Source of the DNA: Rhodopseudomonas sp.
Lineage (GTDB): Bacteria; Pseudomonadota; Alphaproteobacteria; Rhizobiales; Xanthobacteraceae
Reading direction: 5' to 3'
Length of the DNA stretch: 64,000 bases
Assembly (NCBI GenBank): GCA_016124795.1
Contig: WGNB01000010.1
Coordinates: 1-64,000 of the forward strand
Part shown: piece after piece, positions 29,453 through 46,446 of the stretch
Layout: every line of letters begins with the position of its first letter
Position numbering within the stretch: the first letter of the stretch is position 1
Program-made: the position numbers and the translations under genes
The notes under the pieces: generated by a model
The model's input: only the letters and a program-made list of their open reading frames with translations
Told to the model about the DNA's origin: nothing
Databases searched by the model: none

Positions 29453-29462
29453 CGCAAGCTTC

Positions 29463-31683: not shown

Positions 31684-31728
31684 ATTATGAAAGCTAATCG
31701 CCAACCACAATCGATAGCCCCGGGCTAT
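31684..31728. promoter_or_regulatory. Two LysR-type boxes between fdsG and its regulator
   Basis: ATTA-N7-TAAT at 31684-31698 (within CGATTA/TAATCG) and ATAGCCC-C-GGGCTAT at 31714-31728. Both satisfy T-N11-A with dyad symmetry, and they are 30 bp apart, about three helical turns. They fit recognition and activation sites of the divergent LysR protein. The rest of the 31502-31852 gap holds the promoters but no gene. Confidence 0.6.
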
Positions 31729-31852
31729 GTATTTTCGCCAATCATCCGATCCAATATTCCGATCGAAGCGAATTAGCGCTGCATTTTTCCGCGAAACATC
31801 GGATACCGAAGCGACGGCATCGTCGTCTTCAAACCGATCGAAGGAGCAGCGT

Positions 31853-32749
31853 TTGATCGACCGACTGGAGTTTCTCATCGCCTTGGCGCGCGAACGCCAC
31901 TTTGGCCGCGCGGCTGAAGTCTGCGGCGTATCGCAACCGACCTTGTCGTCCGGCCTTAAGCTACTCGAAGAGTCATTGAACACATTGCTGGTCGTTCGTG
32001 GTTCGCGATTCGAGGGTTTCACGGTGGAAGGCGAGCGGACGCTGGAATGGGCGCGCCGCATTGTAGCCGACAGTCGCGCCATGCGGCAGGAGCTCGACGC
32101 GCTCAAACGCGGCCTCACCGGCGAGATCAAGATCGCCGCGATCCCGACCGCGCTACCGATGGTCTCGAGCCTGACGACGCCTTATCGAGCCAACCATCCC
32201 AGTGTCAGTTTCACGATTCTGTCGCGCACGTCGATCGACGTCTTGAAGCAGATCGAAAATCTCGAGGTCGATGCTGGCTTGACTTATATCGATAACGAAC
32301 CGCTTGGCCGGGTGAGTTCGGTGCCGCTTTATCGCGAGGAATATCGCTTCCTGACCGCGGCCGATGCGCCGCTCGGCGACCGTGACACCGTCACCTGGGC
32401 CGAGGTCGGCAAGGTGCCACTATGCCTGCTGACAACCGACATGCAGAACCGCCGCATCATCGACCAAGTGCTACGGTCGGTCGGCGTCGAAACAGCGCCA
32501 ACCCTGCAATCGAACTCGATGGTGGTTCTGCATTCGCATGTCCGAACCGGACGCTGGGCCAGCATCATGCCGGCGGTTCTGGCCGATAACCTCGGCCTGA
32601 CGCCGGCGGTGCGCTCGATCCCGATCGTCGATCCGGTCATCGGTCACACCATCGGCCTGGTTGCGCCTGAACGCGAACCGATGACACCGCTGGTCGCCGC
32701 GTTGCTGACGGAGGGCAAGAAGCTCGCCAAGACTCTGCTGGCGTCGTGA
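31853..32749 (+). CDS. fdsR: LysR-type regulator of the formate dehydrogenase operon
   Basis: 298 residues if started at the TTG at 31853, chosen because AAGGAG lies 6 nt upstream and the helix-turn-helix follows at once (DRLEFLIALARERHFGRAAE, then VSQPTLSSGLKLLEE). Longer frames upstream give an unmatched 42-residue lead. The C-terminal effector domain begins near GEIKIAAIPT. Divergent from fdsG, as fdsR is in Cupriavidus-type loci, where it responds to formate. The symbol is by context. Confidence 0.8.
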   Translation: MIDRLEFLIALARERHFGRAAEVCGVSQPTLSSGLKLLEESLNTLLVVRGSRFEGFTVEGERTLEWARRIVADSRAMRQELDALKRGLTGEIKIAAIPTALPMVSSLTTPYRANHPSVSFTILSRTSIDVLKQIENLEVDAGLTYIDNEPLGRVSSVPLYREEYRFLTAADAPLGDRDTVTWAEVGKVPLCLLTTDMQNRRIIDQVLRSVGVETAPTLQSNSMVVLHSHVRTGRWASIMPAVLADNLGLTPAVRSIPIVDPVIGHTIGLVAPEREPMTPLVAALLTEGKKLAKTLLAS

Positions 32750-32761
32750 CGCCGGCGGCGA

Positions 32762-33895
32762 TCAGCCCTTGCGCATCAACGGCAAGGCAAGGTCGAGCAG
32801 CGCACCGCCATTCAGGCCTTCCAGCATGCTGAAGTGATGGCCGGGCACGATCAGCGAAGGCGGTGCTTTCCATAGCGACGCGAGCAATTCGGACTGCCGC
32901 TTGAATTCATCGCTTTCGGCCGCGCCGACCGCCAGCGCAACGCGCGTCGACGACGGCGCCGGGAAACGAGCCGGCGACAACGCCGCGATGGTCGCCGCGT
33001 CGAACTGCAATAGCCGGCCAAAAGGCAGGAGCCCGAGAGGTTCAAGGTCGAACAGACCGGACAGCAGCAGCACCGAACGGATCGGCACCGCCGTTTGATC
33101 GAGCGCCGCCATGGCCGCCAGATGCGCGCCGGCCGAATGACCGGAAAGATGCAAGTCGCCGATGTCGAGCGAAAGATTGTCGGCCTGCGCCGCCAGGCAG
33201 GCCATCAGCCGCTTAATCTGGCCGACGATCGTTGTCACCGACGTCTCCGGCGCGAGACCATAATTGGCCATGACCACGGCATAGCCGGCCTTCAACATGC
33301 CGGCGGCGAACTGGCCGTGCTGGTTTTTATCCGACGCCTGCCAATAGCCGCCATGCAGAAATACCCAGACCGGCGGACGCGCGACGTTGGCCGGCATGAA
33401 CAGATCGAAGGTTTCGTAACGGCCCGGCCCGTAACAGAGGTCGAGGCCGCCATGCGGCGCGCGCGCCTGCGCGCCGTCCTTGCTCCATTGCTTGAACAGC
33501 ACATTCATGTCGGTCTGGCCGCGCGGGCTGTATTGCCGGCCGAGTTCGGCCCGCGTGTAGCCGCGATAGACCGCCTGATCGGCATCGGCCGAAGGCGGCG
33601 CCTTCGCGGCGGTGATGACGACGCGCAGGCCCGGCTTGCCCGAACGGCGCAAGGCGACCGGCTTGCGGAAGCCGGCGAAGACCTCGCGATACAGCAATTC
33701 GACGTCATGGCGCGACGGGTGAAAGGCCGCGAGATCGTCGACCTCCCAGGCAACCGCTTCGATACTCTGCGGGCCGCAACCGGCCGCGATCAGCGCCTTC
33801 AGCGCGTCGGTCAGCGCGTCGCGCAGGGATTCATCCCGGTCAGTTGACGGAGAATAACCGGAAACCTCGATCAGCGTGGCTTTAGAGTCCGACAT
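32762..33895 (-). CDS. RidA-like domain fused to arylformamidase-type alpha/beta hydrolase
   Basis: 377 residues in two parts. Residues about 15-100 resemble a YjgF/RidA subunit (AGCGPQSIEAVAWEVDDLAAF, then YREVF). Residues about 130-375 are an alpha/beta hydrolase with VFLHGGYWQA, the HGGxW oxyanion motif of kynurenine formamidases, the nucleophile serine in LSGHSAGAHLAA, and a late GHHFSMLEGL with the catalytic histidine. A formamide or ester hydrolase acting on an amino-aromatic or ring-cleavage product is likely. Its start overlaps the livF end by 14 bp, so it is the last gene of the importer operon. Confidence 0.75.
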   Translation of the reverse strand: MSDSKATLIEVSGYSPSTDRDESLRDALTDALKALIAAGCGPQSIEAVAWEVDDLAAFHPSRHDVELLYREVFAGFRKPVALRRSGKPGLRVVITAAKAPPSADADQAVYRGYTRAELGRQYSPRGQTDMNVLFKQWSKDGAQARAPHGGLDLCYGPGRYETFDLFMPANVARPPVWVFLHGGYWQASDKNQHGQFAAGMLKAGYAVVMANYGLAPETSVTTIVGQIKRLMACLAAQADNLSLDIGDLHLSGHSAGAHLAAMAALDQTAVPIRSVLLLSGLFDLEPLGLLPFGRLLQFDAATIAALSPARFPAPSSTRVALAVGAAESDEFKRQSELLASLWKAPPSLIVPGHHFSMLEGLNGGALLDLALPLMRKG

Positions 33896-34580
33896 AACCC
33901 TGCACCTTATCCGCGTCGCGCGTCAGGGCGTCGCTATCGCCCTCCCACACCGTGCGGCCCTTCTCCAAGACATAATGATAATCGGCGATCCGCTTTAGCA
34001 CGTTCAGGTTCTTGTCGATCAGCAGAATGGACTGCCCGGCGTCCTTCAAGGCAGCAATGCAATGCCAGATATCGGCCCGGATCACCGGCGCCAATCCTTC
34101 GGTTGCCTCGTCGAGAATCAGCAATTTCGGATTGGTCATCAAGGCGCGGCCGATGGCCAGCATCTGCTGTTCGCCGCCCGACAGGGTCTGCGCCAGGCTT
34201 TGCGCCCGCTCCGCCAGCCGCGGAAACATTCCGTAAATTCGTTCGAGCGTCCAGGGATCGGCGCGGCCGAAACGATTGGCGGCCGTGGCGACGAGATTCT
34301 CACGCACGGTCAACGTCGGAAACACGATACGGCCTTCCGGCACGAGCCCGATGCCACGGCGGGCGATTGCATCCGAACTCACGCCGGCGGTCGGCTGGCC
34401 TTCGAACCAGATGCCCTGTCCGACCGGCAATATGCCCATAATGGAGCGGACCGTCGTCGTCTTGCCCATGCCGTTACGGCCCAACAACGTGACGACCTTG
34501 CCTTGCGGGATTTCGAGATTGACGTCGAACAGCACCTGGCTGGCACGATAGCCGGCCTCGACATGGCTCAACTTCAGCAT
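33882..34580 (-). CDS. livF: Branched-chain-type ABC transporter ATPase LivF
   Basis: 232 residues. Walker A GRNGMGKTTT, signature LSGGEQQM, Walker B LLILDEATEGLAP: the LivF pattern. Cytoplasmic energising subunit of a hydrophobic-amino-acid/aromatic-acid class importer with LivG, LivM, LivH and the periplasmic proteins below. Its ATG shares one base with the livG stop (TGATG). Confidence 0.9.
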   Translation of the reverse strand: MLKLSHVEAGYRASQVLFDVNLEIPQGKVVTLLGRNGMGKTTTVRSIMGILPVGQGIWFEGQPTAGVSSDAIARRGIGLVPEGRIVFPTLTVRENLVATAANRFGRADPWTLERIYGMFPRLAERAQSLAQTLSGGEQQMLAIGRALMTNPKLLILDEATEGLAPVIRADIWHCIAALKDAGQSILLIDKNLNVLKRIADYHYVLEKGRTVWEGDSDALTRDADKVQGYVGL

Positions 34581-35332
34581 CAGACGTCACCCTCGCCGAG
34601 ATAGGCTGTGCGGACTTCCTCGTTAGCCTTGATGTCGTCGACATTGCCCTGGGCGATAAGCCGGCCATAGACCAGCACGGATATCCGGTCGGCCAACGTA
34701 AACACGGCTTCCATGTCGTGTTCGACGATCAGCATTGTGACGTGGCCCTTGAGCGACGCCAGCAGGGACACCATCTGCTGACTCTCGACCGTGCCAAGCC
34801 CCGCCATCGGCTCGTCCAACAGCAGCACACGCGGCTTGCAGGCCAGCGCCGCCGCCAGATCAAGCTGCTTGCGCTCGCCATGCGCCAGTTCGCCGACCGG
34901 CACGTCGGCGCGCTGGGTCAGGCCGACCTGCTCGATGTAAATCGCCGCCTCGTCGCGGATCGCCCGATCGCCGCGCGCATGGCCGACGAAGCGGAAGCTG
35001 TGACCGGACCGCGCCTGGATCGCCAGCATCACGGTGTCGCGGCTGGTATACTCCGGCAATGTCTCGGTGATCTGGAATGTCCGCGCCAGACCGCGCAGCA
35101 CGCGGCTCCACACCGGCAGATGGCCGATTTCGGCTCCTGCCAGCATGATCGAGCCGGAATCATGTTCCAGCGCACCGACCAGTTGATTGACCAACGTTGT
35201 CTTGCCGGCGCCGTTGGGACCGATCAGCGCATGCAGTTCGCCCTCCGGCAAAGCCAAACTGAGATCGTCGGTGGCGATCAGGCCGCCGAAACGCTTGTTG
35301 AGCCCGCGAACGTCGAGAAGCGCTTGCGTCAT
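34580..35332 (-). CDS. livG: Branched-chain-type ABC transporter ATPase LivG
   Basis: 250 residues from the ATG at 35332; the open frame continues 450 bp further upstream but over livM, so that part is not real. Walker A GPNGAGKTTL, signature LAHGERKQ (a LivG-type variant of LSGGQ), Walker B VLLLDEPMAGLG. Overlaps livM by 4 bp. Confidence 0.9.
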   Translation of the reverse strand: MTQALLDVRGLNKRFGGLIATDDLSLALPEGELHALIGPNGAGKTTLVNQLVGALEHDSGSIMLAGAEIGHLPVWSRVLRGLARTFQITETLPEYTSRDTVMLAIQARSGHSFRFVGHARGDRAIRDEAAIYIEQVGLTQRADVPVGELAHGERKQLDLAAALACKPRVLLLDEPMAGLGTVESQQMVSLLASLKGHVTMLIVEHDMEAVFTLADRISVLVYGRLIAQGNVDDIKANEEVRTAYLGEGDV

Positions 35333-36366
35333 GGCCGGCCCAGTCCGAGTTGCCGGAATAGCGCCGCCAGCCCGCCCCGCGAGAACAGGACAACGGCGAG
35401 CAGAATAATGCCGAGCGGCAATTGCCAATGCTCGGTCTGCGCCGTCAGCACAGCTTCGAGCAGCACAATGGCGGCCGCGCCGAGCAGCGGACCGAACAAA
35501 GTGCCGGTGCCGCCGAGGATCACCATCATCATCAGTTCGCCGGACTTGGTCCAATGCAGCATATCGGGGCTGGCGAAGCGCAGATAATTGACCATCAGCG
35601 CGCCGGCCAGACCAGCGCCCATGCCGGCGATGACGAATGCGGCGAGCTTGTAAGGGTAAGGCGAGAAGCCGAAAGCGGCGAGCCGCTTTTCGTTCTGCCG
35701 CAAGCCGGACAGCACGAATCCGAACCGCGACCGGACGATCAAAGCCGTCAAGCCGAGCCAGAATGCCGCCGCAACCAGGCACAGATAATAGAACGTCTGG
35801 TCGCCCCAGATATCAACGAAAGGCAAAACGTCGCGGCGGCGCATCATCAGACCGTCGTCGCCGCCATAGGTCTTCAGCGATACGAACAGGAAATAGAGCA
35901 TCTGCGCAAAAGCCAGCGTGATCATGATGAACTGCACGCCGCCGGTCCGGAGCGAAAAAGCGCCGATCACCGCCGCGAGAATACCGGCCACCAACATCGC
36001 GGCAGGAAGCGTTATCAAAAGATTGTCAGTGCCCGGGACCAGATCGAGAAAGGCGCTGTCGTCGGCGTGATGGAAATAGAGAATGGCGACGACATAAGCA
36101 CCGACGCCGAAGAACGCGCCGTGTCCGAAACTAATCATACCGCCATAGCCGAGGATCAGGTTCAGACTCAATGCCGCGATACCGTAGATCAGCACCTGGG
36201 TCACCAGGCCCACGAACGAATCGTGACCTAAACCGCGTGCCAGATAAGGCAGCGCGACCAGAAGAGCAGCCACGACGAGGCCAAGCGTCACCTTGACCGG
36301 CGCGGATGCGCCGGTCGGCGAGTTGACGGGTTTAGTTGCCGCGAAGTCCACAGGTTGCTCGGTCAT
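35329..36366 (-). CDS. livM: Branched-chain-type ABC transporter permease LivM
   Basis: 345 residues, ATG at 36366 sharing a base with the livH stop. Inner-membrane protein with about eight to nine hydrophobic spans. NLILGYGGMISFGHGAFFGVG is the usual LivM loop and GMGAGLAGALMV lies in the ATPase-contact region. A 40-residue polar N-terminal lead precedes the first span. Confidence 0.9.
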   Translation of the reverse strand: MTEQPVDFAATKPVNSPTGASAPVKVTLGLVVAALLVALPYLARGLGHDSFVGLVTQVLIYGIAALSLNLILGYGGMISFGHGAFFGVGAYVVAILYFHHADDSAFLDLVPGTDNLLITLPAAMLVAGILAAVIGAFSLRTGGVQFIMITLAFAQMLYFLFVSLKTYGGDDGLMMRRRDVLPFVDIWGDQTFYYLCLVAAAFWLGLTALIVRSRFGFVLSGLRQNEKRLAAFGFSPYPYKLAAFVIAGMGAGLAGALMVNYLRFASPDMLHWTKSGELMMMVILGGTGTLFGPLLGAAAIVLLEAVLTAQTEHWQLPLGIILLAVVLFSRGGLAALFRQLGLGRP

Positions 36367-37280
36367 CACGATTTCACAAACAAGCCGCGCGGCTTTACCA
36401 AAAGAACGACAGCCATCAGCAGATAAACACCCATCGACGACAGCCCGCTGCCGAGCGCATCGGCATTGGAACCGTTCATGACATGGCGCAACAGCCCCGG
36501 CAGAAACGCCCGCGCCAACGTATCAATCAGGCCCGCCAACAAGGCTCCATAAAAGGCGCCACGAACCGAACCGACGCCGCCGATCACCACGACCACGAAA
36601 GCCAGAATCAAGATCTGCTCGCCCATACCAACCTGAACCGACAACACCGGGCCTGCCATAGCGCCGGCAAGCCCGGCCAGCACCGCGCCAAGCCCGAACA
36701 CCAGCGTATAAAGCGCCTTGATGTCGACGCCGAGCGCACGCACCATTTCGCGGCTGGTCGCGCCCGCGCGCACCAGCATGCCGACACGGGTCCGGTTAAT
36801 CAGAAAATAAAGTCCGGCCCCGACCACCAGACCGACCCCGATCACGACCAGCCGATAGACCGGATAAACCAGCCCCGGCAGCAGGGTCACCGACCCGGAA
36901 AACAAAGGCGGCATCGCCACAAACAAGGGCTGACGTCCGACCAAAATGGTAGCGGTCTCGTTGATGATCAGAATGAGCGCGAAGGTCGCCAGCACCTGGT
37001 CGAGATGATCGCGGTCATACAAACGGTTGATCACCAGCACCTCAAGCAACAATCCGGCGACACCCGCCCCCGCCAAACCGGCGATCAAAGCCAGTAGCAC
37101 CGAGCCGGTCTTGGCAGCGACCAGCGCCGCCGCGTAAGCGCCGATCATGTAGAGCGAACCATGGGCGAGATTAATCACGCCCATGATTCCGAATATCAGA
37201 GTCAGGCCGGCCGACATCAGAAACAGCGAGATGCCGAACTGGATGCCATTGAGAAACTGCTCTGCGACAAGCATATTCAT
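36366..37280 (-). CDS. livH: Branched-chain-type ABC transporter permease LivH
   Basis: 304 residues. Hydrophobic throughout, with GIMGVINLAHGSLYMIGAYA near the start and ALGVDIKALYTLVFGLGAVL at the ATPase contact, both typical of LivH. Follows the binding-protein gene by 37 bp. Confidence 0.9.
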   Translation of the reverse strand: MNMLVAEQFLNGIQFGISLFLMSAGLTLIFGIMGVINLAHGSLYMIGAYAAALVAAKTGSVLLALIAGLAGAGVAGLLLEVLVINRLYDRDHLDQVLATFALILIINETATILVGRQPLFVAMPPLFSGSVTLLPGLVYPVYRLVVIGVGLVVGAGLYFLINRTRVGMLVRAGATSREMVRALGVDIKALYTLVFGLGAVLAGLAGAMAGPVLSVQVGMGEQILILAFVVVVIGGVGSVRGAFYGALLAGLIDTLARAFLPGLLRHVMNGSNADALGSGLSSMGVYLLMAVVLLVKPRGLFVKS

Positions 37281-37317
37281 CGATGCCGGCCTTCCTCTTC
37301 CTCTATCGCCTTAACGA

Positions 37318-38493
37318 TCAGAGCTTGCAGTCCTTGGCGAAGGAATCGCCATAGTTGGACAGGATCTTCTTCTGGGTCACCAGATGAAGCTGGCCGTCGC
37401 CGCCCTTCTCCACCTTCAACGCGAACCAATCCTGAACCGGGTGCTGATTGTTGCCAAATTTGAAGTTGCCGCGTACCGAATGGAAATCGGCCTTCAGCAT
37501 GGCGGTACGGAACGCGGCGGTGTCATCGACCTTGCCGCCAGTCTGCTTCAGCGCGGCGGCGATCGCCAGCGCGGCGTCATAGCCCTGGCTGGAATAATAG
37601 GTCGCCGGGCGGTTATAGGCCTTGGTCCAGGCGGCCATGAAAGCCTTGTTGGCCGGATTGTCGAAGTCGCTGTTCCAGTGCGCGCTGACATTGACGCCAA
37701 CCGCCGCTTCGCCGACCGCCTTGAGGGTCACGGCGTCGAGCGACGGCGCCGCGACCACCATCGGAACTTCCTTGCCAAGCCCGGCCTGCTGATACTGACG
37801 CAACAGGGCGATGCCGAGACCGCCGGGCTCGAACTGGAAGAACGCATCCGGCTTGGCGGCGCGCACCTGCGCCAGTTCGGCGGAGAAGTCGGTCTGGTCG
37901 AGGCGGGTATAAATTTCGCCGACGATCTTGCCCTTGAAGGTGCGCTTGAAGCCGGCGAGCGCGTCTTTGCCGGCCTGATAGTTCGGCGCCATGATGAAGG
38001 CGCTCTTGTAGCCCAGCGAATTGGCGTTCACGCCGGCGCTTTCATGCAGGCTGTCGTTCTGCCACGACACGACATAATAGTTCTTGTTGCAGCTCTTGCC
38101 GGCGAAAGGCGACGGCGCCGCGTTCGGGCTGACATAAATCGCGCCGGCATCAAGCACGTCGGGCACGGTCGCGCCGAGCACATTGGAGAAGACGATGCCC
38201 GTGAACAGCTTGATGTGCTGATCCTTCAGCATCTTGTCGGCGATTTCGCGGCCTTTGCCCGGCTTGAGGCCATCGTCTTCGACGACGACCTTGACCGGAA
38301 CGCCGCCGAGCTTGCCGCCTTCCATCTGCACCGCGAGATTGAAGCCGTCACGGATATCCTGACCGAGATAGCCCGCCGGGCCCGACAGCGTCGTAATAAA
38401 GCCAATCGCCAGCGGATCGGCCGCGTAGGCCGCCGATGCGCTGCCCAGAGCGAACGCAAGAGCGGAAACCATCGTCAACGTTTTCATCTTCAT
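37318..38493 (-). CDS. ABC transporter periplasmic binding protein, Liv/aromatic type (copy 1)
   Basis: 391 residues. Sec signal peptide (MKMKTLTMVSALAFALG...AYA) then the type I periplasmic fold: IGFITTLSGPAGYLGQDIRD, PNYQAGKDALAGFK. First gene of the importer operon livHMGF. Members of this class bind branched-chain amino acids, benzoate-like acids or other aromatics; here the neighbouring catabolic genes point to an aromatic or heteroaromatic acid. Very similar to the protein at 39564-40760. Two inverted repeats lie upstream. Confidence 0.88.
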   Translation of the reverse strand: MKMKTLTMVSALAFALGSASAAYAADPLAIGFITTLSGPAGYLGQDIRDGFNLAVQMEGGKLGGVPVKVVVEDDGLKPGKGREIADKMLKDQHIKLFTGIVFSNVLGATVPDVLDAGAIYVSPNAAPSPFAGKSCNKNYYVVSWQNDSLHESAGVNANSLGYKSAFIMAPNYQAGKDALAGFKRTFKGKIVGEIYTRLDQTDFSAELAQVRAAKPDAFFQFEPGGLGIALLRQYQQAGLGKEVPMVVAAPSLDAVTLKAVGEAAVGVNVSAHWNSDFDNPANKAFMAAWTKAYNRPATYYSSQGYDAALAIAAALKQTGGKVDDTAAFRTAMLKADFHSVRGNFKFGNNQHPVQDWFALKVEKGGDGQLHLVTQKKILSNYGDSFAKDCKL

Positions 38494-38548
38494 CGCCTCA
38501 TACTCCTGTTCATTCCGGTACGCCCCCGGCAGTTTAAGCCACTATTCA

Positions 38549-38585
38549 TCTGTCAATAACAGACAATCGCAGCTCTACGATTGTC
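38549..38585. promoter_or_regulatory. Adjacent inverted repeats upstream of the importer operon
   Basis: TCTGT-CAATA-ACAGA at 38549-38563 abuts GACAATCG-N8-CGATTGTC at 38562-38585 (8-bp perfect arms). They sit 56-92 bp before the binding-protein gene, where a promoter is expected, and after the metallo-hydrolase gene. No T run follows, so an operator is more likely than a terminator. Confidence 0.5.
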
Positions 38586-38634
38586 CGGCGACGCCGCGAC
38601 GCGCTACCGGCAGTTGCAAACCCGCACCGTCAAC

Positions 38635-39555
38635 TCAGAGCGGGACGTAATCGAAACCTTCTCCAACCGCGTGAAGACGCCCGAACACCGGCGCCGGAAA
38701 ATGATACGGCGCTACGATCGTCGCAGCGTCAGCGCATTCATCGAGGAGACGCCGACGGGTTGCCGCCGCGACCGCCGGGTCCATGCAAAAATTGGACCCT
38801 TTGCCCGGATCGCTCAACTGCGCCGGATGATGAATAACATCGGCCAGGAACAACACTTCGGCGTCGTCGGTGCGCAGCCGCACGACCGCCATGCCCGGCG
38901 AATGGCCGGGCGCCGGTTCCAACGCAAGACCCGGCACGATCTCGTGCGGCAGCGCCACGCCCTCAAGTCGGCCCAATTTCAGCAACGGCACGACGCTGTC
39001 GGCAAAGGAACCGTGCAGCAAGGCATCGCCTTCCGTCGCAAAGCGCTCCGACCAGTACGTCAGGTCGACGGCCGGGGCCAGATAACGCGCATTCGGAAAG
39101 GCCGGGACCCAGTTGCCGTCATCGTCGGCCACCGTGTTCCAGCCGACGTGATCGGCATGCATATGGGTATTGATGACAATGTCGACGCGCTCAGGCGCAA
39201 AGCCCATTTCCGTCAGCGCGGCCATGAACAAGCCGTTGCGACGATGCCAGTGCGGTCGGTCGAGCCGTTCCTTGCCATTGCCGATGCCGGCATCGATCAG
39301 CACCACCTTGCCGGCGGTCTCGACCACGTAAGAATTGAAACTCAGCAAGATCGAATTCGTCTCCGGATCGACCATGCCGGGCGGCAAACGCGCCGCCGCC
39401 GCGGTCAGTTGATCGCCGGTCAACCATTTCAACAGACTCGTTGCCGGCCATTTCACCGTCTCGATATCGCTGAGACGGTGGACCCGCGCGTCACCGACGC
39501 GCAAGGTCTGCACTTTGTAAGCGCCGCCAGCAACATCTCGCTGTGACACGGTCAT
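38635..39555 (-). CDS. Metallo-beta-lactamase-fold hydrolase
   Basis: 306 residues from the ATG at 39555, 8 bp after the second binding-protein gene. The metal motif THMHADHVGW (HxHxDH) is present, with later ligands in EPAPGHSPGM, a downstream aspartate in LFLADVIHH and a histidine in VAPYHFPAP. The family includes lactonases and other ring-opening or ester hydrolases. Its place in a catabolic operon suggests hydrolysis of a lactone or cyclic intermediate, which is inferred only. Confidence 0.82.
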   Translation of the reverse strand: MTVSQRDVAGGAYKVQTLRVGDARVHRLSDIETVKWPATSLLKWLTGDQLTAAAARLPPGMVDPETNSILLSFNSYVVETAGKVVLIDAGIGNGKERLDRPHWHRRNGLFMAALTEMGFAPERVDIVINTHMHADHVGWNTVADDDGNWVPAFPNARYLAPAVDLTYWSERFATEGDALLHGSFADSVVPLLKLGRLEGVALPHEIVPGLALEPAPGHSPGMAVVRLRTDDAEVLFLADVIHHPAQLSDPGKGSNFCMDPAVAAATRRRLLDECADAATIVAPYHFPAPVFGRLHAVGEGFDYVPL

Positions 39556-39563
39556 CGACTCGC

Positions 39564-40760
39564 TCACAGTTTGCACTGCGCCGCAAAGGGATCGACGTAG
39601 TCGCTGATGATCTTCTTCACGGTCTTGAGCACGATCTGACCGGAAGCGTCCTTTTCGACCTGCATCCCGTACCAATCCTGAACCGGATGCTGGTTCTTGC
39701 CAAACTTGAAATGGCCACGGGTGTTGGGGAAATCACCCTTCAACAACGCCGCCCGAAACGCATCCTTGTCGTCGACCTTCCCGCCCGTGCGTTTGAGCGT
39801 GGCGTCAATCGCCAAGGCTGTGTCGTAACCTTGCGCCGCATACATCGTCGGCGTGCGGCCATATTCTTTCTTGAATGCCACGACGAAAGCCTTGTTGGTC
39901 GAATTATCGAAATCGGCGTTCCAGGCACCCGAAACATGAATGCCAAGCGCGGCGGCGCCCACCGCCTTGATAATAACCTGATCCATTGATGGCTCCGATA
40001 CCACCATGGGAATCGTCGTCAAAAGGCCCGCCTGCTGATACTGGCGAAGGAAGGCGATGCCGAGACCACCGGGATGGAACTGGAACACCACATCCGGCTT
40101 GGCGGCGCGGATCTGCGCCATCTCGGCGGCGTAATCGGTCTGGTCCATACGGGTATAGACCTCGCCAACAATCTGGCCCTTGAAGAAACGCTTGAAACCG
40201 GCAATGGCATCCTTGCCGGCCGCATAGTTCGGCGCCAGCACGAAAGCGCGCTTGTAACCGAGCGTGGAGGCGTTCTCGCCAGCACTGCCCTGCATGGTGT
40301 CGGTCAGCCATGACATCACGAAGTAATTGCGATCGCACATCTTGCCAGCGAATTCCGACGGGCCGGCGTTTGGGCTGATGAAAATGCCGCCGCCATCGAG
40401 CACCTCGGGCACGACGACGCCAGCTACGTTAGAGAACACCAGACCGGTGAACAACTTGATCTTGTCGTTCTTGAGCATCCGGTCGGCGATCTGCTTGCCG
40501 TTGCCGGGCTTGAGACCATCGTCCTCGACTTCGACGTTGACCGGCGTGTCGCCGAGTTTGCCGCCCTGCAACTTGACCAGCAAATTGAAGCCGTCGCGAA
40601 TATCCTGCCCCAGATAGCCGGCCGGACCGGACAATGTGGTAATAAAGCCGATCTTGAGCGGATCGGCGGCCCGGGCAGATGCGACCCCGCCCATTGTGCC
40701 CAGAAGGAACGAGCCCAACAGCAGAGCACCGGCGGCAAGACAACGCGACGAAATCTTCAT
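39564..40760 (-). CDS. ABC transporter periplasmic binding protein, Liv/aromatic type (copy 2)
   Basis: 398 residues with a signal peptide ending near ASARA. It aligns almost end to end with the protein at 37318-38493: both have IGFITTLSGPAGYLGQDIRD, NQHPVQDW and end in CKL. The two genes are separated only by the metallo-hydrolase gene, so this is a local duplication that has diverged. It has no permease of its own and probably feeds the same LivHMGF, with a different ligand preference. Confidence 0.87.
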   Translation of the reverse strand: MKISSRCLAAGALLLGSFLLGTMGGVASARAADPLKIGFITTLSGPAGYLGQDIRDGFNLLVKLQGGKLGDTPVNVEVEDDGLKPGNGKQIADRMLKNDKIKLFTGLVFSNVAGVVVPEVLDGGGIFISPNAGPSEFAGKMCDRNYFVMSWLTDTMQGSAGENASTLGYKRAFVLAPNYAAGKDAIAGFKRFFKGQIVGEVYTRMDQTDYAAEMAQIRAAKPDVVFQFHPGGLGIAFLRQYQQAGLLTTIPMVVSEPSMDQVIIKAVGAAALGIHVSGAWNADFDNSTNKAFVVAFKKEYGRTPTMYAAQGYDTALAIDATLKRTGGKVDDKDAFRAALLKGDFPNTRGHFKFGKNQHPVQDWYGMQVEKDASGQIVLKTVKKIISDYVDPFAAQCKL

Positions 40761-40851
40761 CTCAATTCAGTTCCTTCTCCAGCTTCTTCTCGTTCGATTC
40801 TCAACATCCGGCGGTGAGGTCAGCGCGCCCGGCGCCGACCCCCAACCGGCG

Positions 40852-41403
40852 CTACAGCGTCACCCAACCAGCCGGCGGCGTCTTTCCGGGATGGATGGCG
40901 CCACAGTTCGGGCACTTGCGCGCCGACTCGTTGGCAAAAAACGCTTCGTAGATCGGCGGCAAATCCCGCACCAGATTCTCGACCTTGACTTCGGCGCGAT
41001 GCACCAGCGCGTTGCATTCGAAGCAGTACCATTCGAAGGCATCGACATCGTCGCCGGCATGACGCTTCGGCTCGACAACGAGACCAATCGATCCTTCCTG
41101 CGGTCGCTGCGGCGAATGACGCACATGCGGCGGCAACAAAAACACTTCGCCCTCGCGCACCGGCACATCGTAGAAATTGCCGTTGTCGACCACCTTGAGC
41201 ACCATGTCGCCCTTGAGCTGGTAGAAGAACTCCTCGACCGGATCGTCATGGTAATCGGCGCGCGAATTGGGACCGCCGACCACCATCACTGTCATTTCGG
41301 AATTTTCGAACACCTTGCGGTTGCCGACCGGCGGCTTCAGCAGATGCTGGTTCTCGTCGATCCATTTCTGGAAGTTGAATGCCTGTAGACGCCCAAGCTT
41401 CAT
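40852..41403 (-). CDS. 3-Hydroxyanthranilate 3,4-dioxygenase
   Basis: 183 residues, a cupin. Residues matching the characterised bacterial enzyme are all present: R48, H52, E58, H96, R100, E111 for iron and substrate binding, and a C-terminal rubredoxin-like site with CFEC (C127, C130) and CPNC (C164, C167). It cleaves the ring of 3-hydroxyanthranilate to 2-amino-3-carboxymuconate semialdehyde. The usual next enzymes (decarboxylase, semialdehyde dehydrogenase) are not seen, so the true substrate may be an analogue. Overlaps the molybdenum hydroxylase gene by 4 bp. Confidence 0.9.
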   Translation of the reverse strand: MKLGRLQAFNFQKWIDENQHLLKPPVGNRKVFENSEMTVMVVGGPNSRADYHDDPVEEFFYQLKGDMVLKVVDNGNFYDVPVREGEVFLLPPHVRHSPQRPQEGSIGLVVEPKRHAGDDVDAFEWYCFECNALVHRAEVKVENLVRDLPPIYEAFFANESARKCPNCGAIHPGKTPPAGWVTL

Positions 41404-43712
41404 GATGATCGTCCTCCGTTATTGTGTTTCTGATTGAGTGCGCGCCAGATTTTTTCGCTGGTGAGCGGCGCGTCGAGATCGGTGACGCCGAACGGCGACA
41501 GCGCGTCGATAGCGGCATTCAGGATTGCCGCCGGCACACCGATGCAGCCGGCTTCGCCTACCCCTTTGGCGCCGAGCGCATTAGCCGCCGAAGGCACGGT
41601 GATCTTGTCAATGACCAGGTCCGGAATATGAGCGGCGCGCGGCACCGCGTAGTCCATCAGTGACGCGGTCACCAACTGGCCGTCCGTATCGTAAACCAGA
41701 CGTTCCGACATCACGGCGCCCAGCCCCTGCGCGAAGCCGCCACGCAACTGGCCCTCGACCAGCATCGGATTAACGACCACGCCGGCGTCGTCGATCCAGG
41801 TAACATGCTCGATTGTCAGCGCTCCGGTCGGACCGTCGACCACGACCAGCGCGATACAACAGCCACTAGCCCAGGCCTCGGACCCGGCCTGATATTTTTG
41901 CGCGGTCGTCAGCGCCAATCGATCGGTCACATCGATGCGCGCCGCATGGGCGCGCGCCGCAACCGCCGACCAAGAAACACAGGCGGCGGGATCGGCGACC
42001 AGCGCCAGTCCGCCGTTCACCGGCACGATATCGGCTGTAGCCGCATTGAGCATCTCAGCTGCCACCGCCGTCGCCTTGGTGAGAAATTCACGTACCGCGA
42101 CCAGTACCGCGCTGCCGCCGATCGGCGTACCGCGGCTGGCCAAGGCGCCAATACCGGCGGGTGCACGCGCGGTGTCGCCGTGAATCACGCACACTTGCCC
42201 GGCCTGCGTTTTGAGAACGTCGCAGACGATCTGTGCGTAAGCAGTCTCACGGCCCTGGCCTTGCGCGCTACTGCCGGATGCCAAAACAATCTCGCCATCG
42301 ACGCCAAGGCCTATCGTTGCGCTTTCCCAGCCTTCGCCGCACGGTTCGATATAAAGCGAAGTGCCGATGCCGACGATCTCGCCACGACGGCGGCGCTTGG
42401 CGCGACTGCGACACAACGCCTTGTAGTCGGCACGCTCGGTCGCCTTGGCGATCAACGCAGGGTAATCGCCGGCATCGATCAGAACCCCGGTCGGCGACCG
42501 GAAAGGCAAGCGGTCCGGTGAAATCAGATTGCGTCGGCGGATTTCCAGCGGATCGAGATTCACGACCGCCGCCGCCCGGTCCATCAAACGTTCCATCACC
42601 AGGCAAGCCTCGGGGCGACCGGCGCCCCGATAGATGCCGAGCGCAGCCGTGTTGGTCAGATGGCCGGTCAATTCGATCTCGACGGTGTCGATTAGATAAG
42701 GCCCCGGGAGAATGCGCCCGGCATTTCGGCCCGGCACGACCGAACTGTAAGGCATCCAATGGCCGAGCGGAAAATTCAGGCGGGCCTGTAGTCCCAGCGC
42801 GCGGCCATCGCCAGAGAGCGCCAACGCGGCTTCAATGCGCCCGCCACGCCCATGCGTTGCCGCGAGAAAATCCTCGCTGCGGCTGGCGATCCATTTTACC
42901 GGTCGACGCATCGTCTTGGCCGCCCAGGCGACCACCGCGTCTTCCGGATAGATCGACGCCTTGCCGCCGAAAGCACCGCCGACATCGGGAGCAATAATGC
43001 GAATTTGCGAGTCGGGCATGCCGAGAATGCTGGCAAGATCGATACGCGCGCGGTGCGGCGCCTGGGTCGGCAAATGAACGGTCAGACGAGCCTCGACTTC
43101 GTCCCATTGCGCGACCGCGCCGCGCGGTTCAAGCGCCATCGGCGCGACACGGGCATGGTCGATATCGACGCGCACGACATGCGCGGCCTTCGCGAAGACC
43201 TCGGCGCAATCGCCCTGCGACCAGCGTTGAGCGTAAGCGGCGTTGTCGGCGACCTGATCCGGCCCCGCACTGTCGTCGACGCCGAAGACGATCGAGTCGG
43301 CGGCATCCCGAGCCGCCTCTGCCGACGTGCCGATCACGGCGGCCACCGGCTGGCCGACCGCTTCAACGATGCCACGCGCGAGCGGAGAAAACGACGCCAT
43401 TTTCATGCCGGAGATCAGCGGATTAACACCGGCCGGCGCGACGGCGACGACATCGCGTCCGGTAAAAACCGCGACAACCCCGGGACTCGTCCGCGCGGTC
43501 TCGACATCGAGCTGGGTGATGGCGCCGCGCGCATGGGTGCTGCGGAAAAACGCCAGATGCAGGCAATCGGCCGGACTGACATCGTCGATGAAACGGCCCG
43601 CGCCGGTCACCAAGGGCGCGTCCTCGCGACGTCTGACCGCGCGGCCGATCCCGGCATCGACGGCACCCGCCGGCCAAAATTTCGCACTCTTGCTCGATGC
43701 GCCTTGCCCCAT
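41400..43712 (-). CDS. Molybdenum hydroxylase large subunit (xanthine oxidase superfamily, orphan)
   Basis: 770 residues from the ATG at 43712. Hammerhead domain start GRAVRRREDAPLVTGAGRFIDD, molybdopterin domains with VGGAFGGKASIYPED, loop IYRGAGRPEACLVME and catalytic glutamate in GAKGVGEAGCIG. It resembles the protein at 15444-17756 in size and architecture. FAD and 2Fe-2S subunits are missing. Translationally coupled to the dioxygenase, so it probably hydroxylates the ring (often next to a ring nitrogen) before cleavage, or acts on an aldehyde. Divergent from a LysR gene. Confidence 0.82.
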   Translation of the reverse strand: MGQGASSKSAKFWPAGAVDAGIGRAVRRREDAPLVTGAGRFIDDVSPADCLHLAFFRSTHARGAITQLDVETARTSPGVVAVFTGRDVVAVAPAGVNPLISGMKMASFSPLARGIVEAVGQPVAAVIGTSAEAARDAADSIVFGVDDSAGPDQVADNAAYAQRWSQGDCAEVFAKAAHVVRVDIDHARVAPMALEPRGAVAQWDEVEARLTVHLPTQAPHRARIDLASILGMPDSQIRIIAPDVGGAFGGKASIYPEDAVVAWAAKTMRRPVKWIASRSEDFLAATHGRGGRIEAALALSGDGRALGLQARLNFPLGHWMPYSSVVPGRNAGRILPGPYLIDTVEIELTGHLTNTAALGIYRGAGRPEACLVMERLMDRAAAVVNLDPLEIRRRNLISPDRLPFRSPTGVLIDAGDYPALIAKATERADYKALCRSRAKRRRRGEIVGIGTSLYIEPCGEGWESATIGLGVDGEIVLASGSSAQGQGRETAYAQIVCDVLKTQAGQVCVIHGDTARAPAGIGALASRGTPIGGSAVLVAVREFLTKATAVAAEMLNAATADIVPVNGGLALVADPAACVSWSAVAARAHAARIDVTDRLALTTAQKYQAGSEAWASGCCIALVVVDGPTGALTIEHVTWIDDAGVVVNPMLVEGQLRGGFAQGLGAVMSERLVYDTDGQLVTASLMDYAVPRAAHIPDLVIDKITVPSAANALGAKGVGEAGCIGVPAAILNAAIDALSPFGVTDLDAPLTSEKIWRALNQKHNNGGRSS

Positions 43713-43760
43713 CGGCAAAGTATGCGAAAGCGGCGACTATAGGACAATGGCGATTATTCG

Positions 43761-43792
43761 TATCAGTTGATAAGCTATTACTTATAGATCAA
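43761..43792. promoter_or_regulatory. Overlapping dyads in the molybdenum hydroxylase / lysR promoter gap
   Basis: TATCA-GT-TGATA (43761-43772) and ATAAG-CTATTA-CTTAT (43770-43785) lie in an AT-rich 101-bp divergent region. They are plausible binding sites for the LysR protein encoded just downstream. Confidence 0.4.
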
Positions 43793-43813
43793 GGAACCGC
43801 CGAGGCGCCCTCC

Positions 43814-44758
43814 ATGAACATCACCATCCGACAGTTGCAGGCCTTCATCGAAGTGGCCGACGCCGCCAGCTTCACCCAGGCGGCCAAGCGCATGCACATC
43901 GCGCAGCCGGCGCTGTCGCAACACGTTCGCGATCTGGAAAGCGAACTCGGTATCCGGCTGTTCGACCGCACCACGCGGCGGGTCGAACTCACTGAGGGCG
44001 GTCGCGAATTCCGCAATCGCGCCGGCAAGATCGTCGAAGACCTCGAGCACGCCACCCGTTACGTCCACGACTACGCCGAGCGCAAACACGGTCGCGTGAC
44101 CATTGCCGCACCGCCTCTGCTGGCGGCGACGATTCTGCCTTGGGCGATGGCGGACTTTCATGCCGCCTTTCCCGGCATCCAGATCAGCCTTACCGAACTG
44201 CCGAGCGATCAAATCGTCGCGCAGGTCCGCTCCGGCAAAATCGAATGCGCGCTGGGAACGTTCCGCGCCGGCGAACCCGACATCAGCAGTAAAGTCCTAT
44301 GCAGCGACAGCCTGGCGGCTTTCAGCCTGGGCAACAATCCGCTCTCCCGGCAAAAGCGCATCCTGTGGCGCGAGCTGGAGAATTATCAGCTGATCGCAAT
44401 GACGCGAGAAAGCAATATCCGCCTGCTGTTCGAACTCGGGTGCGAACGATCAAAAGCCGCGCTTAACCCGACATACGAAGTGTCGCATGTAACCACCGCA
44501 CTCGCGATGGTGGAAGCCGGCCTCGGCGTCGCGATCCTGCCTACTTATGCGGCGGTGGCGTCCCGCAATCCCGATGTCAAAGCCACACCTCTGCACAAGC
44601 CGCAGATGGAACGCAATATTGTGCTCATTACACAATCCGGCCGCTCGCCATCGCCCGGCCTGCAAAGCTTCACGCACTTCCTCGTCAAGCATACGCTGGC
44701 TTCTCTGCCGCGAAGTCTGACGGCAACCGGACGCAAGCTTTCCGCACGAGCAAACTGA
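43814..44758 (+). CDS. LysR-type regulator of the aromatic catabolic locus
   Basis: 314 residues from the ATG at 43814, where the helix-turn-helix begins (MNITIRQLQAFIEVADAASF, then TQAAKRMHIAQPALSQHVRD). The effector domain follows from about residue 90 (GRVTIAAPPLLAATILPWAM). Upstream frame extension has no family match. Divergent from the molybdenum hydroxylase/dioxygenase genes and followed by RidA, YciI and amidohydrolase genes; a regulator of both arms is likely. Confidence 0.85.
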   Translation: MNITIRQLQAFIEVADAASFTQAAKRMHIAQPALSQHVRDLESELGIRLFDRTTRRVELTEGGREFRNRAGKIVEDLEHATRYVHDYAERKHGRVTIAAPPLLAATILPWAMADFHAAFPGIQISLTELPSDQIVAQVRSGKIECALGTFRAGEPDISSKVLCSDSLAAFSLGNNPLSRQKRILWRELENYQLIAMTRESNIRLLFELGCERSKAALNPTYEVSHVTTALAMVEAGLGVAILPTYAAVASRNPDVKATPLHKPQMERNIVLITQSGRSPSPGLQSFTHFLVKHTLASLPRSLTATGRKLSARAN

Positions 44759-44876
44759 ATAATCGACACCGTGTGACGCAGGCGGATTGTGCGACGATCT
44801 TTTTCGGTGATAGAACGCGCCGGATCAACGACGCTGCTCTCATCATTCCCGTCAGCCTGTCACAACGGTCAAACGA

Positions 44877-45347
44877 ATGAACAAGATCGACGCCCGCCTG
44901 TCCGAACTCGGCATTGAGCTGCCATCGCCGCCACCGCCGCGCGCTGCGCGTATTCTGATGGCCAAGATTGCCGGCGATTTCCTGTTTGTATCTGGCCAGT
45001 TGCCGTCCTGGAACGGTGAGCTACGTTATATCGGCAAGGTCGGCAAGGAATTCGATCTGGCACAGACACAAGCCGCCGGCCGTCTCTCGGCGCTCAACGT
45101 CCTGGCGCAGGCGCGTGCCGCGCTCAACGGTGATCTCGATCGTATCACGGAGGTCGTCGGCCTGCGCGGTTATGTCAACACCACGCCCGAGTTCTTCGAG
45201 ATCGCACAGGCGGTCAACGGCGCATCCGATCTGATGGTCGAAGTCTTCGGCACGGCCGGCGCCCATACCCGCACCGCGCTCGGGGTGGCGATGATGCCCT
45301 ACAATGCGGTCATCGAAATCGACGCCCAGTTCCTGCTGAAAAAATAA
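44877..45347 (+). CDS. RidA (YjgF/YER057c) family protein
   Basis: 156 residues with FLFVSGQLPSWNG, ALAQ-type helix region, and HTRTALGVAMMPYNAVIEID, where the conserved arginine of enamine deaminases is kept. Family members hydrolyse enamines/imines; some (2-aminomuconate deaminase, RutC) act in ring-cleavage pathways of amino-aromatics or pyrimidines. This fits the dioxygenase across the divergent promoter. Possibly a trimer in the cytoplasm. Confidence 0.8.
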   Translation: MNKIDARLSELGIELPSPPPPRAARILMAKIAGDFLFVSGQLPSWNGELRYIGKVGKEFDLAQTQAAGRLSALNVLAQARAALNGDLDRITEVVGLRGYVNTTPEFFEIAQAVNGASDLMVEVFGTAGAHTRTALGVAMMPYNAVIEIDAQFLLKK

Positions 45348-45375
45348 TAGAATCAAACCATTACCGGAGAGAGCA

Positions 45376-45693
45376 ATGCTGTACATCATCTATCAGGAAG
45401 ACCGCCCCGACGGAGCCGCGATCCGCGCCGCGGCGCGCGAAGAGCACTTCGCCTATCTCGATCGGCACAAGGATATTCTCGTGCTCGGCGGCGCGACGCT
45501 CGCCGGCGATGACGACACAACGCGCATCGGCAGCGTCCTCATTATCAACGTGCCGAGCTTTGCCGACGCCGAAAAATTTTCCGAGAACGAACCGTTCCGC
45601 AAGGCCGGCCTGTTCAAATCGGTGAAGGTCACCCGGATGCGTCGAGGCCAATGGAATCCGGCCGCCGCGCCGTCGAGCGCCGAAGGCAATTAG
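45376..45693 (+). CDS. YciI-like protein
   Basis: 105 residues, preceded by GGAGAGA. Ferredoxin-like dimer fold of the YciI family: MLYIIYQEDRPDG, then EEHFAYLDRH with the conserved histidine-aspartate pair and VLGGATLAGDDD, NVPSFADAEKFSENEPF. Function of the family is uncertain; in muconolactone-isomerase-like relatives it serves in catabolic operons. Lies between RidA and amidohydrolase genes in one plus-strand unit. Confidence 0.8.
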   Translation: MLYIIYQEDRPDGAAIRAAAREEHFAYLDRHKDILVLGGATLAGDDDTTRIGSVLIINVPSFADAEKFSENEPFRKAGLFKSVKVTRMRRGQWNPAAAPSSAEGN

Positions 45694-45774
45694 ACGACAG
45701 AAGCGTCCGCCGATGCGAAGCGGCGCACCGGCGCCCGAAAGCATCACTCCGAGCGGGAACACCACGGCGCAGCG

Positions 45775-46446
45775 ATGACGGACATCGAACTCAAGGCCCG
45801 GCCGCAGAACTTGCGGTTCGCGACGGCGCGCACCGCACTGATCGTCAACGACATGCAGAATGCCTTCTGCTCGCCGGGGGGCTATCTGGAGCGTATCGGC
45901 TTCAGCGTCGCCGAGGCTCCCGCGGTCATTCACAATGTGTCCCGGCTCTGCGGCGCGGCCCGCCGCGCCGGCGTGCTGGTGGTCAATCTCAAGAACGGCT
46001 TTGCGCCCGACCAGCATGAAGCGCCTCCCGGCGCGCCGATCTTCCACAAGTCGAATGCGCTGCAATACATGCGCGCCCATCCGGACATGGCCGGCCAAAT
46101 CCTCACTCACGGCACATGGGATTATGAGTTTATCGACGCGCTGACCCCACAACCGGGCGACCTCGTCGTCGAAAAGTCACGCGATAGCGGATTTGCCGGC
46201 ACGTCGCTGGACAGTGATCTGCGCGGTCGGGACATCCGCACGGTCATCGTGTGCGGCATCGCCTGCAATGTCGGCGTCGAATCGACCATTCGCGCCGCCT
46301 ACCATCTGAATTATTTCGCTGTACTCGCCAATGACGCCACTCTCCCCGCCGGACCGAAATTCATCCAGGACGCAACCGAGCACAACGTCGCGACCTTTTA
46401 TGGCTGGGTCGCCGACACCGCCGCGATCTGTCAGGCGTTGCGATAG
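45775..46446 (+). CDS. Cysteine hydrolase of the isochorismatase/RutB type
   Basis: 223 residues. Catalytic triad visible: aspartate in LIVNDMQNAF, lysine in VVEKSRDSGF, cysteine in VCGIACNVGVEST. This matches amidohydrolases such as ureidoacrylate amidase (RutB) and maleamate amidase (NicF). In this neighbourhood an open-chain amide or carbamate from ring cleavage is the likely substrate. Last gene of the plus-strand unit. Confidence 0.82.
   Translation: MTDIELKARPQNLRFATARTALIVNDMQNAFCSPGGYLERIGFSVAEAPAVIHNVSRLCGAARRAGVLVVNLKNGFAPDQHEAPPGAPIFHKSNALQYMRAHPDMAGQILTHGTWDYEFIDALTPQPGDLVVEKSRDSGFAGTSLDSDLRGRDIRTVIVCGIACNVGVESTIRAAYHLNYFAVLANDATLPAGPKFIQDATEHNVATFYGWVADTAAICQALR

Follow-up and report, generated by a model that had tools for sequence, protein, structure and literature searches.

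Tryptophan breakdown by way of 3-hydroxyanthranilate is textbook biochemistry. A locus at positions 32,762 to 46,446 of a 64,000-nucleotide stretch of Rhodopseudomonas sp. DNA (contig WGNB01000010.1 of assembly GCA_016124795.1; hereafter the window) encodes 3-hydroxyanthranilate 3,4-dioxygenase (3HAO) and raises the question of how the opened ring is degraded further. In the known route, as given in PMC7842363, 3HAO is followed by 2-amino-3-carboxymuconate semialdehyde (ACMS) decarboxylase (ACMSD), a semialdehyde dehydrogenase and a deaminase of the YjgF family. A previous reading of the DNA made without database searches (the sequence-only reading) had reported the decarboxylase and the semialdehyde dehydrogenase as missing. 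Both genes are absent from the locus and no close ACMSD was detected in the assembly; the gene content bears out that reading in its view of a catabolic locus from which the usual downstream genes are missing. The explanation that best accommodates the whole, which we regard as probable rather than assured, is that the locus would import and cleave 3-hydroxyanthranilate, that a molybdenum enzyme (Mo-enzyme) would oxidize ACMS, and that the lower step would be replaced in the window. On the genome comparisons described below, a second type of lower pathway, recognized from the exchange of genes in a large number of genomes, is better supported than the window-specific reading, and the window is a rare, incompletely explained variant.

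The dioxygenase and its probable substrate

The window 3HAO scored above two NCBIfam equivalog cut-offs (266.0 against 220, and 254.8 against 145.95) and aligned with PDB entry 1yfu at 235.8 bits, the metal and substrate residues being identical to those of this solved bacterial enzyme. The earlier assignment of a 3HAO with its active residues intact thus was borne out. Residues R48, H52, E58, H96, R100 and E111 and four cysteines were invariant in an alignment of 10 sequences; the conserved positions presumably comprise the metal ligands, the substrate-binding arginine and glutamate, and the C-terminal cysteine pairs. The closest copies, at 90% identity, were found in L073, from a metagenome-assembled genome titled Pseudolabrys sp., and in two genomes of the genus of the window (loci, genomes and contigs are labeled L, G and C, respectively). 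A different Liv operon adjoins these copies (L167, L168 and L073, with L073 and L167 probably being one contig), and the fetched stretches contained neither the lyase discussed below nor a Mo-enzyme. Judged by the 90% matches, the source of the window is very likely a Pseudolabrys-like member of the Xanthobacteraceae.

In the 3HAO tree the window fell in a group of seven rows (support 100/97) made up of loci from its own genus, some of them with the lyase, the other branches being weakly supported in a bootstrap that had not settled. Loci with the lyase and loci with ACMSD were intermixed around the window, and kynurenine genes were located beside both types. Genes for kynureninase, kynurenine monooxygenase or tryptophan dioxygenase were present in six lyase loci, namely L107, L114 and L124 from Gammaproteobacteria, L112 and L126 from Acidimicrobiaceae, and L100 from a Rhizobiales isolate. 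Tryptophan or kynurenine genes also occurred in ACMSD loci L115, L125, L130 and L137, and in L066, L113 and L121, in which neither lyase nor ACMSD was found in the fetched stretch. On the strength of the six lyase loci, the substrate is probably 3-hydroxyanthranilate, and by its gene content the window locus looks like one for the uptake and ring cleavage of an aminoaromatic acid.

PMC7842363 states that ACMS closes to quinolinate spontaneously, without an enzyme, and the locus might feed quinolinate and NAD formation with catabolism being absent. We consider this role very improbable for a ten-gene operon that includes a binding-protein importer and an oxidizing partner enzyme and is accompanied by a LysR gene; moreover, a quinolinate phosphoribosyltransferase gene was not seen by eye in the operon.

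Exchange of lower-pathway genes among relatives

Relatives were sought by 3HAO in a named genome collection. At least 582 stretches matched and the 80 best were retained, so that the sample is enriched in loci close to the window and depleted of canonical 3HAO loci. The tally is based on 132 of 134 sources, L071 and L072 having been dropped as their 3HAO matches were under the 40% threshold. Some of the 132 loci are the identical contig from two collections, and 125 distinct 3HAO sequences remained after merging. As many stretches were short or were ended by contig edges, the presence counts are lower bounds.

Four enzyme families recurred beside importers (Liv or TRAP), LysR regulators and a hydrolase: a lyase of the DapA superfamily, an aldehyde dehydrogenase (ALDH), a Mo-enzyme and an aspartate dehydrogenase. 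The lyase was encoded in 91 of the 132 loci and ACMSD in 8, with no locus containing both and 33 containing neither; the corresponding values after merging were 86, 8 and 0 in 125 loci. Aspartate dehydrogenase genes were identified in 50 of the 132 loci, of which 46 also contained the lyase and none ACMSD (47, 44 and 0 after merging). When looser gene clusters were tallied over 108 loci, the lyase and ACMSD again were never found together (0/108). In these loose clusters an ACMSD-associated RidA family (8 of 13 loci) was also found in three lyase loci.

The same association was apparent across 397 genomes of the order. Matches to 3HAO at E values up to 1e-3 were obtained in 47 genomes and were strong in 35, the 12 with weak matches being excluded from the 3HAO-positive count; the lyase was counted at identities of at least 52%, which set aside 12 genomes with matches of 32-35%. 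On this basis 35 genomes contained 3HAO and 29 the lyase, with 27 possessing both, 8 3HAO alone and 2 the lyase alone (Fisher p 1.7e-32), and among 142 genera 19 shared both, 2 had only the lyase and 6 only 3HAO (p 1.9e-16), with p values that ignore, and are inflated by, shared descent. Among the eight genomes with 3HAO alone, ACMSD was located near 3HAO in G013, G098 and G224 in the tally and in G047 on maps. In G037 and G262 the lyase, Mo-enzyme and aspartate dehydrogenase genes are together on a contig separate from that of 3HAO (L206 and L209), as are those for the lyase and Mo-enzyme in G133 (L208). In L199 and L205 a DapA-type lyase gene unlinked from 3HAO adjoins a gene that by eye resembles the enolase superfamily and a LysR gene. 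Two 3HAO loci are present in Nitratireductor aquimarinus TN35-13: L083 includes the Mo-enzyme and a metallo-hydrolase, and L092 the lyase, ALDH and aspartate dehydrogenase.

The relatives' lyase has the fold and the Schiff-base lysine of the DHDPS/NAL superfamily. An active-site tyrosine and a Ser/Thr pair characterize DHDPS and NAL proper. The lyase does not show this signature: the NAL tyrosine position is taken by W150, and the GxxGE loop contains K59 and Q60; none of these residues varies among 37 sequences. A functional parallel may be trans-o-hydroxybenzylidenepyruvate hydratase-aldolase, which belongs to the DapA superfamily and is likewise a Schiff-base lyase. By analogy, the lyase of the relatives would hydrate and cleave an unsaturated 2-oxo or imino acid, but with another substrate; hydratase-aldolases were absent among the 60 and the 50 PDB matches listed for it, which neither supports nor excludes kinship. 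The best model for the relatives' ALDH was succinate-semialdehyde dehydrogenase (425.6 bits, under the cut-off of 646.35); the aspartate dehydrogenases of two loci scored 263.5 and 339.3 bits against a subfamily cut-off of 177.

A further exchange involves the oxidizing enzyme. Under the strict thresholds used for the Mo-enzyme and ALDH labels in the main tally, the Mo-enzyme was present in 35 of the 132 loci and ALDH in 40, with both in none and neither in 57; 34, 38 and 0 were the respective values after merging to 125 loci. This label changed 12 times on a quick 3HAO tree, four changes being forced by well-supported branches. That loci hold either the Mo-enzyme or ALDH fits with aldehyde oxidation by the former, and on this pattern the Mo-enzyme seems to take the place of the semialdehyde dehydrogenase.

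We propose the following pathway. The Liv importer with its two binding proteins would import either 3-hydroxyanthranilate itself or a masked derivative, which the formamidase/esterase-like hydrolase would unmask if needed. The ring would be opened by 3HAO to yield ACMS, the aldehyde of which would be oxidized by the Mo-enzyme in replacement of an NAD-dependent semialdehyde dehydrogenase, with no early decarboxylation by ACMSD. In many relatives the DapA-superfamily lyase then would split the oxidized C7 tricarboxylate, in the simplest case through hydration followed by a retro-aldol step, into malonate semialdehyde and either iminosuccinate or oxaloacetate, this C4 product being converted to aspartate by aspartate dehydrogenase. 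The formulae, balanced by hand, are C7H7NO6 + H2O = C4H5NO4 + C3H4O3. In the window genome the last step would be replaced, probably by an arm of RidA, YciI and RutB-like proteins with or without the metallo-hydrolase. The sequences themselves establish the gene content, the identity of 3HAO, the conservation, the gene exchanges and the lack of the lyase group and of a close ACMSD in the assembly; the substrate, step order, products and regulation, and the roles of all enzymes but 3HAO, are inferred. More tentatively, at least two undescribed endings that dispense with ACMSD may exist. In the widespread ending a DapA-superfamily hydratase-aldolase would split 2-amino-3-carboxymuconate into iminosuccinate and malonate semialdehyde, with the NADH made by ALDH being spent by aspartate dehydrogenase; in the rarer window set RidA, a TftG-like YciI, a RutB-like protein without the cysteine and a lactonase-fold hydrolase would replace the lyase, the Mo-enzyme serving as the semialdehyde oxidase.

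The window locus resembles the canonical nba (2-aminomuconate) pathway in ring opening by 3HAO, in the presence of a RidA-family protein and in the kynurenine genes beside 3HAO relatives. It differs in that no close ACMSD was found in the assembly, in that the locus has a Mo-enzyme gene instead of one for semialdehyde dehydrogenase, in that the window RidA best matches PF14588 and not the ACMSD-linked family, and in the addition of YciI, RutB-like and metallo-hydrolase genes. With the lyase and aspartate dehydrogenase type of 3HAO locus, a type described here from genomes alone, the window shares 3HAO, the Mo-enzyme, the Liv importer, the hydrolase and LysR in a largely common order, but has neither the DapA-type lyase nor a linked aspartate dehydrogenase. 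No matching pathway was found in the searched literature, in agreement with the earlier statement that the locus corresponds to none described. 3HAO genes occur in several bacterial phyla, and an alternative lower route is not mentioned in the accessible portion of PMC10384668. No publication that joins 3-hydroxyanthranilate with dihydrodipicolinate synthase was found in a search outside of which most subscription journals lie, and titles and the starts of abstracts disclosed none on the lyase or aspartate dehydrogenase in 3-hydroxyanthranilate breakdown. Two papers that name both the compound and aspartate dehydrogenase concern trypanosomatid genomes and mouse proteomics (PMC3833962, PMC6120221).

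If the proposal is correct, a shorter route leading straight to a C4 amino acid would operate in many Alphaproteobacteria as well as in some Gammaproteobacteria and Acidimicrobiia, and ACMSD-less genomes would otherwise be read as incomplete for tryptophan breakdown via 3-hydroxyanthranilate. The proposal also offers a testable function for the DapA-superfamily lyase group, for catabolic aspartate dehydrogenases and for the orphan molybdenum subunit.

The variant in the window genome

Several observations weigh against operation of the proposed pathway in the window genome (G000; the window contig is C50), the assembly of which comprises 5.14 Mb in 76 contigs and is 95% complete. The best match in the assembly to the lyase group of the relatives (k1) has 26% identity, and no 3HAO-linked aspartate dehydrogenase was found in the genome, the sole homologue (43%) being located in another cluster on C43. 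The best-supported lower pathway therefore is incomplete here. The window-type loci (L083, L132, L179, L181 and the window) are scattered on the 3HAO tree with five changes in five rows, no better than shuffles, so that the variant does not form a single lineage and may cover more than one thing. No match to CoxS or CoxM, the FeS and FAD subunits, was obtained across the whole window at E 1e-10; the second nearest solved relative of the Mo-enzyme is an N-heterocycle hydroxylase; and with the looser clusters 4 of the 108 loci contained ALDH as well as the Mo-enzyme. Finally, no close copy of the RutB-like protein was recovered in the fetched loci (best 32%), and the protein has no obvious substrate in the proposed scheme.

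The sequence-only reading had named nba genes elsewhere in the genome as the finding that would reduce the locus to a standard kynurenine route. For ACMSD this was not observed, as the best of nine matches in the assembly has 33% identity and an internal stop; for the semialdehyde dehydrogenase, in a search confined to the locus, no member of the ALDH cluster was found near the window 3HAO. The aspartate dehydrogenase homologue belongs to L156 (on C43; about 1.8-15.9 kb of the locus), named by eye as another aromatic cluster, with two Rieske oxygenases, RidA, a reductase, ALDH, a thiamine diphosphate enzyme, a short-chain dehydrogenase/reductase (SDR), IclR and a transporter; RidA thus is again together with aspartate dehydrogenase.

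The Mo-enzyme scored highest with the NCBIfam model for glyceraldehyde dehydrogenase alpha (570.9 bits, under the cut-off of 790). The molybdenum hydroxylase of the sequence-only reading stands as regards the Mo subunit, in which the GxGE motif is kept, but the window supplies no partner subunits. CoxS and CoxM genes are located at the far end of the operon in L078 and L083. All 10 genomes examined, nine of them chosen for a Mo-enzyme without linked CoxS in the 3HAO stretch and the tenth being the window genome, encode a CoxS with 66-70% identity to the L083 protein; the distance to 3HAO on one contig was about 16 kb in G131 and about 41 kb in G146. As C27 of the window genome includes a 69% CoxS match and a 51% CoxM match beside a different Mo subunit, supply of the small subunits in trans is possible.

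The nearest PDB entries to the Mo-enzyme are CoxL (8uem) and then quinoline 2-oxidoreductase (1t3q), and 6-hydroxypseudooxynicotine dehydrogenase also is among the matches listed. The enzyme conceivably is a ring hydroxylase that acts before 3HAO on an imported N-heteroaromatic or anthranilate-like acid, with the 3HAO homologue cleaving the product and not 3-hydroxyanthranilate. The 4-bp overlap of the Mo-enzyme and 3HAO genes is compatible with this arrangement, and, deamination apart, the known 3-hydroxyanthranilate route offers no clear role for RidA, YciI and the RutB-like protein. However, the mutual exclusion of Mo-enzyme and ALDH under strict thresholds fits aldehyde oxidation, the substrate residues are kept in 3HAO, and kynurenine genes accompany relatives within one 3HAO family. 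Hydroxylation of the ring ahead of 3HAO hence is judged unlikely.

Nineteen genomes of the family, including that of the window, contain 3HAO, and 15 of the 19 have the lyase. The four without it are the window genome, G397 (83% complete), G406 (100%, one contig) and G407 (91%). The window strain could use the lyase and aspartate route with the lyase gene lying in sequence that was not assembled and the RidA-YciI-RutB arm being a neighbor of unrelated function: the assembly falls short of completeness, 27 of the 35 3HAO genomes of the order sample have the lyase, and in L181 the operon stands without the arm next to it. Yet the single-contig genome G406, of the same genus and with the same locus, also is without the lyase, and the RidA-YciI pair adjoins 3HAO in a third lyase-less genome. 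An unassembled lyase therefore appears distinctly improbable.

Replacement of the lower step by the arm is consistent with the distribution of its first two genes. Window-type RidA (at least 79% identity) was found only in the window genome, G406 and G407 among 32 genomes examined, which corresponds to three of the four lyase-less and none of the 15 lyase-bearing 3HAO genomes of the family (p 0.004). In G407 RidA is between 3HAO and YciI, and the ALDH of lyase-type loci is 16 kb away on one contig. A 79% copy of RidA directly beside 3HAO, followed by a 79% copy of YciI, occurs in L179/L198 from another genome of the genus, and a 70% YciI copy adjoins 3HAO on the opposite strand in L132. The link between operon and arm, which the sequence-only reading had left in question, gains support from the 3HAO-RidA-YciI adjacency in L179/L198, and their occurrence near 3HAO makes a part for RidA and YciI in the 3-hydroxyanthranilate breakdown of the window variant quite possible. 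In G406 the RidA-YciI pair is far from 3HAO and near a dioxygenase of LigB-type appearance; this region (L195, 4.9-10.3 kb) also contains amidase-like and SDR-like genes by eye, and the pair may serve another ring-cleavage route, judging by these neighbors.

The nearest solved relatives are PDB 3d01 for RidA and TftG (4lbh) for YciI. A division of labor is plausible in which RidA would deaminate, YciI would isomerize or eliminate, and the metallo-hydrolase would open a ring or lactone. The RutB-like protein does not conform to the isochorismatase-type amidase proposed previously: its score with the RutB model was 261.6 bits against a cut-off of 377.95, and it reads GIACNVGVEST where RutB (8bkd) reads GIATNVCVEST, with glycine at the position of the RutB cysteine. 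The Rut pyrimidine pathway (RutB/RutC) and the NicF-type amidases, which we take to be cysteine-nucleophile systems, are similar in that an isochorismatase-family protein is encoded near a RidA-family protein; they differ as the window protein is without the nucleophile and below the RutB cut-off, and rutA was not recognized by eye in the locus. Because the cysteine is missing, the analogy of the sequence-only reading with the logic of nicotinate/picolinate and Rut degradation, which depended on the amidase, was abandoned.

The metallo-hydrolase scored 112.6 bits with an AidB-type lactonase model, under the cut-off of 360, and its nearest solved relatives are organophosphate hydrolases and lactonases (nearest PDB entry 4le6). 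It was found in just 5 of the 125 loci (L078, L083, L116, L181 and the window), the L116 copy being 10 kb from 3HAO and cut by the locus end. As L078 and L116 hold the lyase too, the metallo-hydrolase is not simply the substitute of the latter. The window-type protein was matched at E values up to 1e-40 in 69 of the 397 order genomes; no listed row other than the window exceeded 41% identity and so no occurrence profile was obtained.

Organization of the locus and neighboring genes

The genes and gene order listed in the sequence-only reading were recovered, by Pfam and NCBIfam matches or, for the permeases and ATPases, by eye together with conservation in relatives. The minus-strand operon of ten genes extends from 43718 to 32762, with a divergent LysR gene and three plus-strand genes behind it (Table 1).

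Table 1. Features of the 3HAO locus (positions in the window)
Feature	Position	Strand	Basis
Mo-enzyme large subunit (CoxL/XDH family)	41400..43718	-	MoCoBD_1/2 Pfam matches
3HAO, 3-hydroxyanthranilate 3,4-dioxygenase	40852..41403	-	PF06052, two NCBIfam equivalogs, PDB 1yfu alignment
Periplasmic binding protein 1, Liv type	39564..40760	-	PF13458
Metallo-beta-lactamase-fold hydrolase, HxHxDH, lactonase/organophosphate-hydrolase group	about 38635..39555	-	PF00753
Periplasmic binding protein 2, Liv type	37318..38493	-	UrtA/Liv models below cut-offs; beside LivH in relatives
LivH permease	36366..37280	-	by eye; kept with LivM, LivG and LivF near 3HAO in relatives
LivM permease	35329..36369	-	by eye and conservation in relatives
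LivG ATPase	34580..35332	-	by eye and conservation in relatives
LivF ATPase	33882..34580	-	by eye and conservation in relatives
Alpha/beta hydrolase, esterase/kynurenine-formamidase group, extra N-terminal domain	32762..33895	-	
Possible LysR operator, ATAAG-N6-CTTAT, divergent promoter	43770..43785	.	chosen by eye
Divergent LysR-type regulator	43814..44758	+	HTH_1, LysR_substrate
RidA family (YjgF_endoribonc), proposed enamine/imine deaminase	44877..45347	+	PF14588
YciI family	45376..45693	+	PF03795
RutB-like isochorismatase-family protein	45775..46446	+	PF00857

Overlaps of 1-14 bp between the Mo-enzyme and 3HAO genes (4 bp), between livH and livM, livM and livG, and livG and livF, and between livF and the hydrolase gene suggest one transcript. 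The sequence-only reading had proposed a search for the gene set in other genomes, and the operon and LysR do recur: L181, from another genome of the genus, contains both in identical order at 60-85% identity (65% for LysR, in an equivalent position), without the RidA-YciI-RutB arm. This recurrence indicates that the gene set was not assembled by chance. The order of binding protein, metallo-hydrolase and binding protein is common to the window, L078, L083 and L181.

The divergent LysR would control at least the main operon. The palindrome in the divergent promoter is the sole exact match in the window, and with up to two mismatches 10 matches were observed against 6.3 expected by chance. Around the palindrome 51 of 65 aligned columns are identical between the window and L181, with a score of 33, whereas none of 500 other stretches of L181 scored above 11; no copy was detected before RidA (44759-44876) when two mismatches were allowed.

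The alpha/beta hydrolase predicted earlier as formamidase-type is present, but carries an additional domain of about 110 residues at its N terminus. That a RidA domain is fused to the hydrolase, as suggested by eye, was not established: the domain aligned with RidA in hhalign over 41 columns (probability 9%, E 0.0036; controls against the 3HAO and lyase alignments gave 0.1% and 0.2%), the N-terminal part of the window protein itself had no Pfam match, and the search by fold was largely one of the hydrolase domain.

Beyond the hydrolase gene, formate dehydrogenase genes were recognized by eye at 26609-31627, with a LysR gene (31727-32749) between. A formate-releasing hydrolase would fit these nearby genes, the placement of which may be due to chance as the neighbor at this position in L181 is a helicase-like gene. 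Searches of the genome with the Mo-enzyme large subunit identified 22 matching places, some of which are fragments of one gene, and the window includes a second large-subunit gene (15456-17732) with 37% identity to the copy in the operon.

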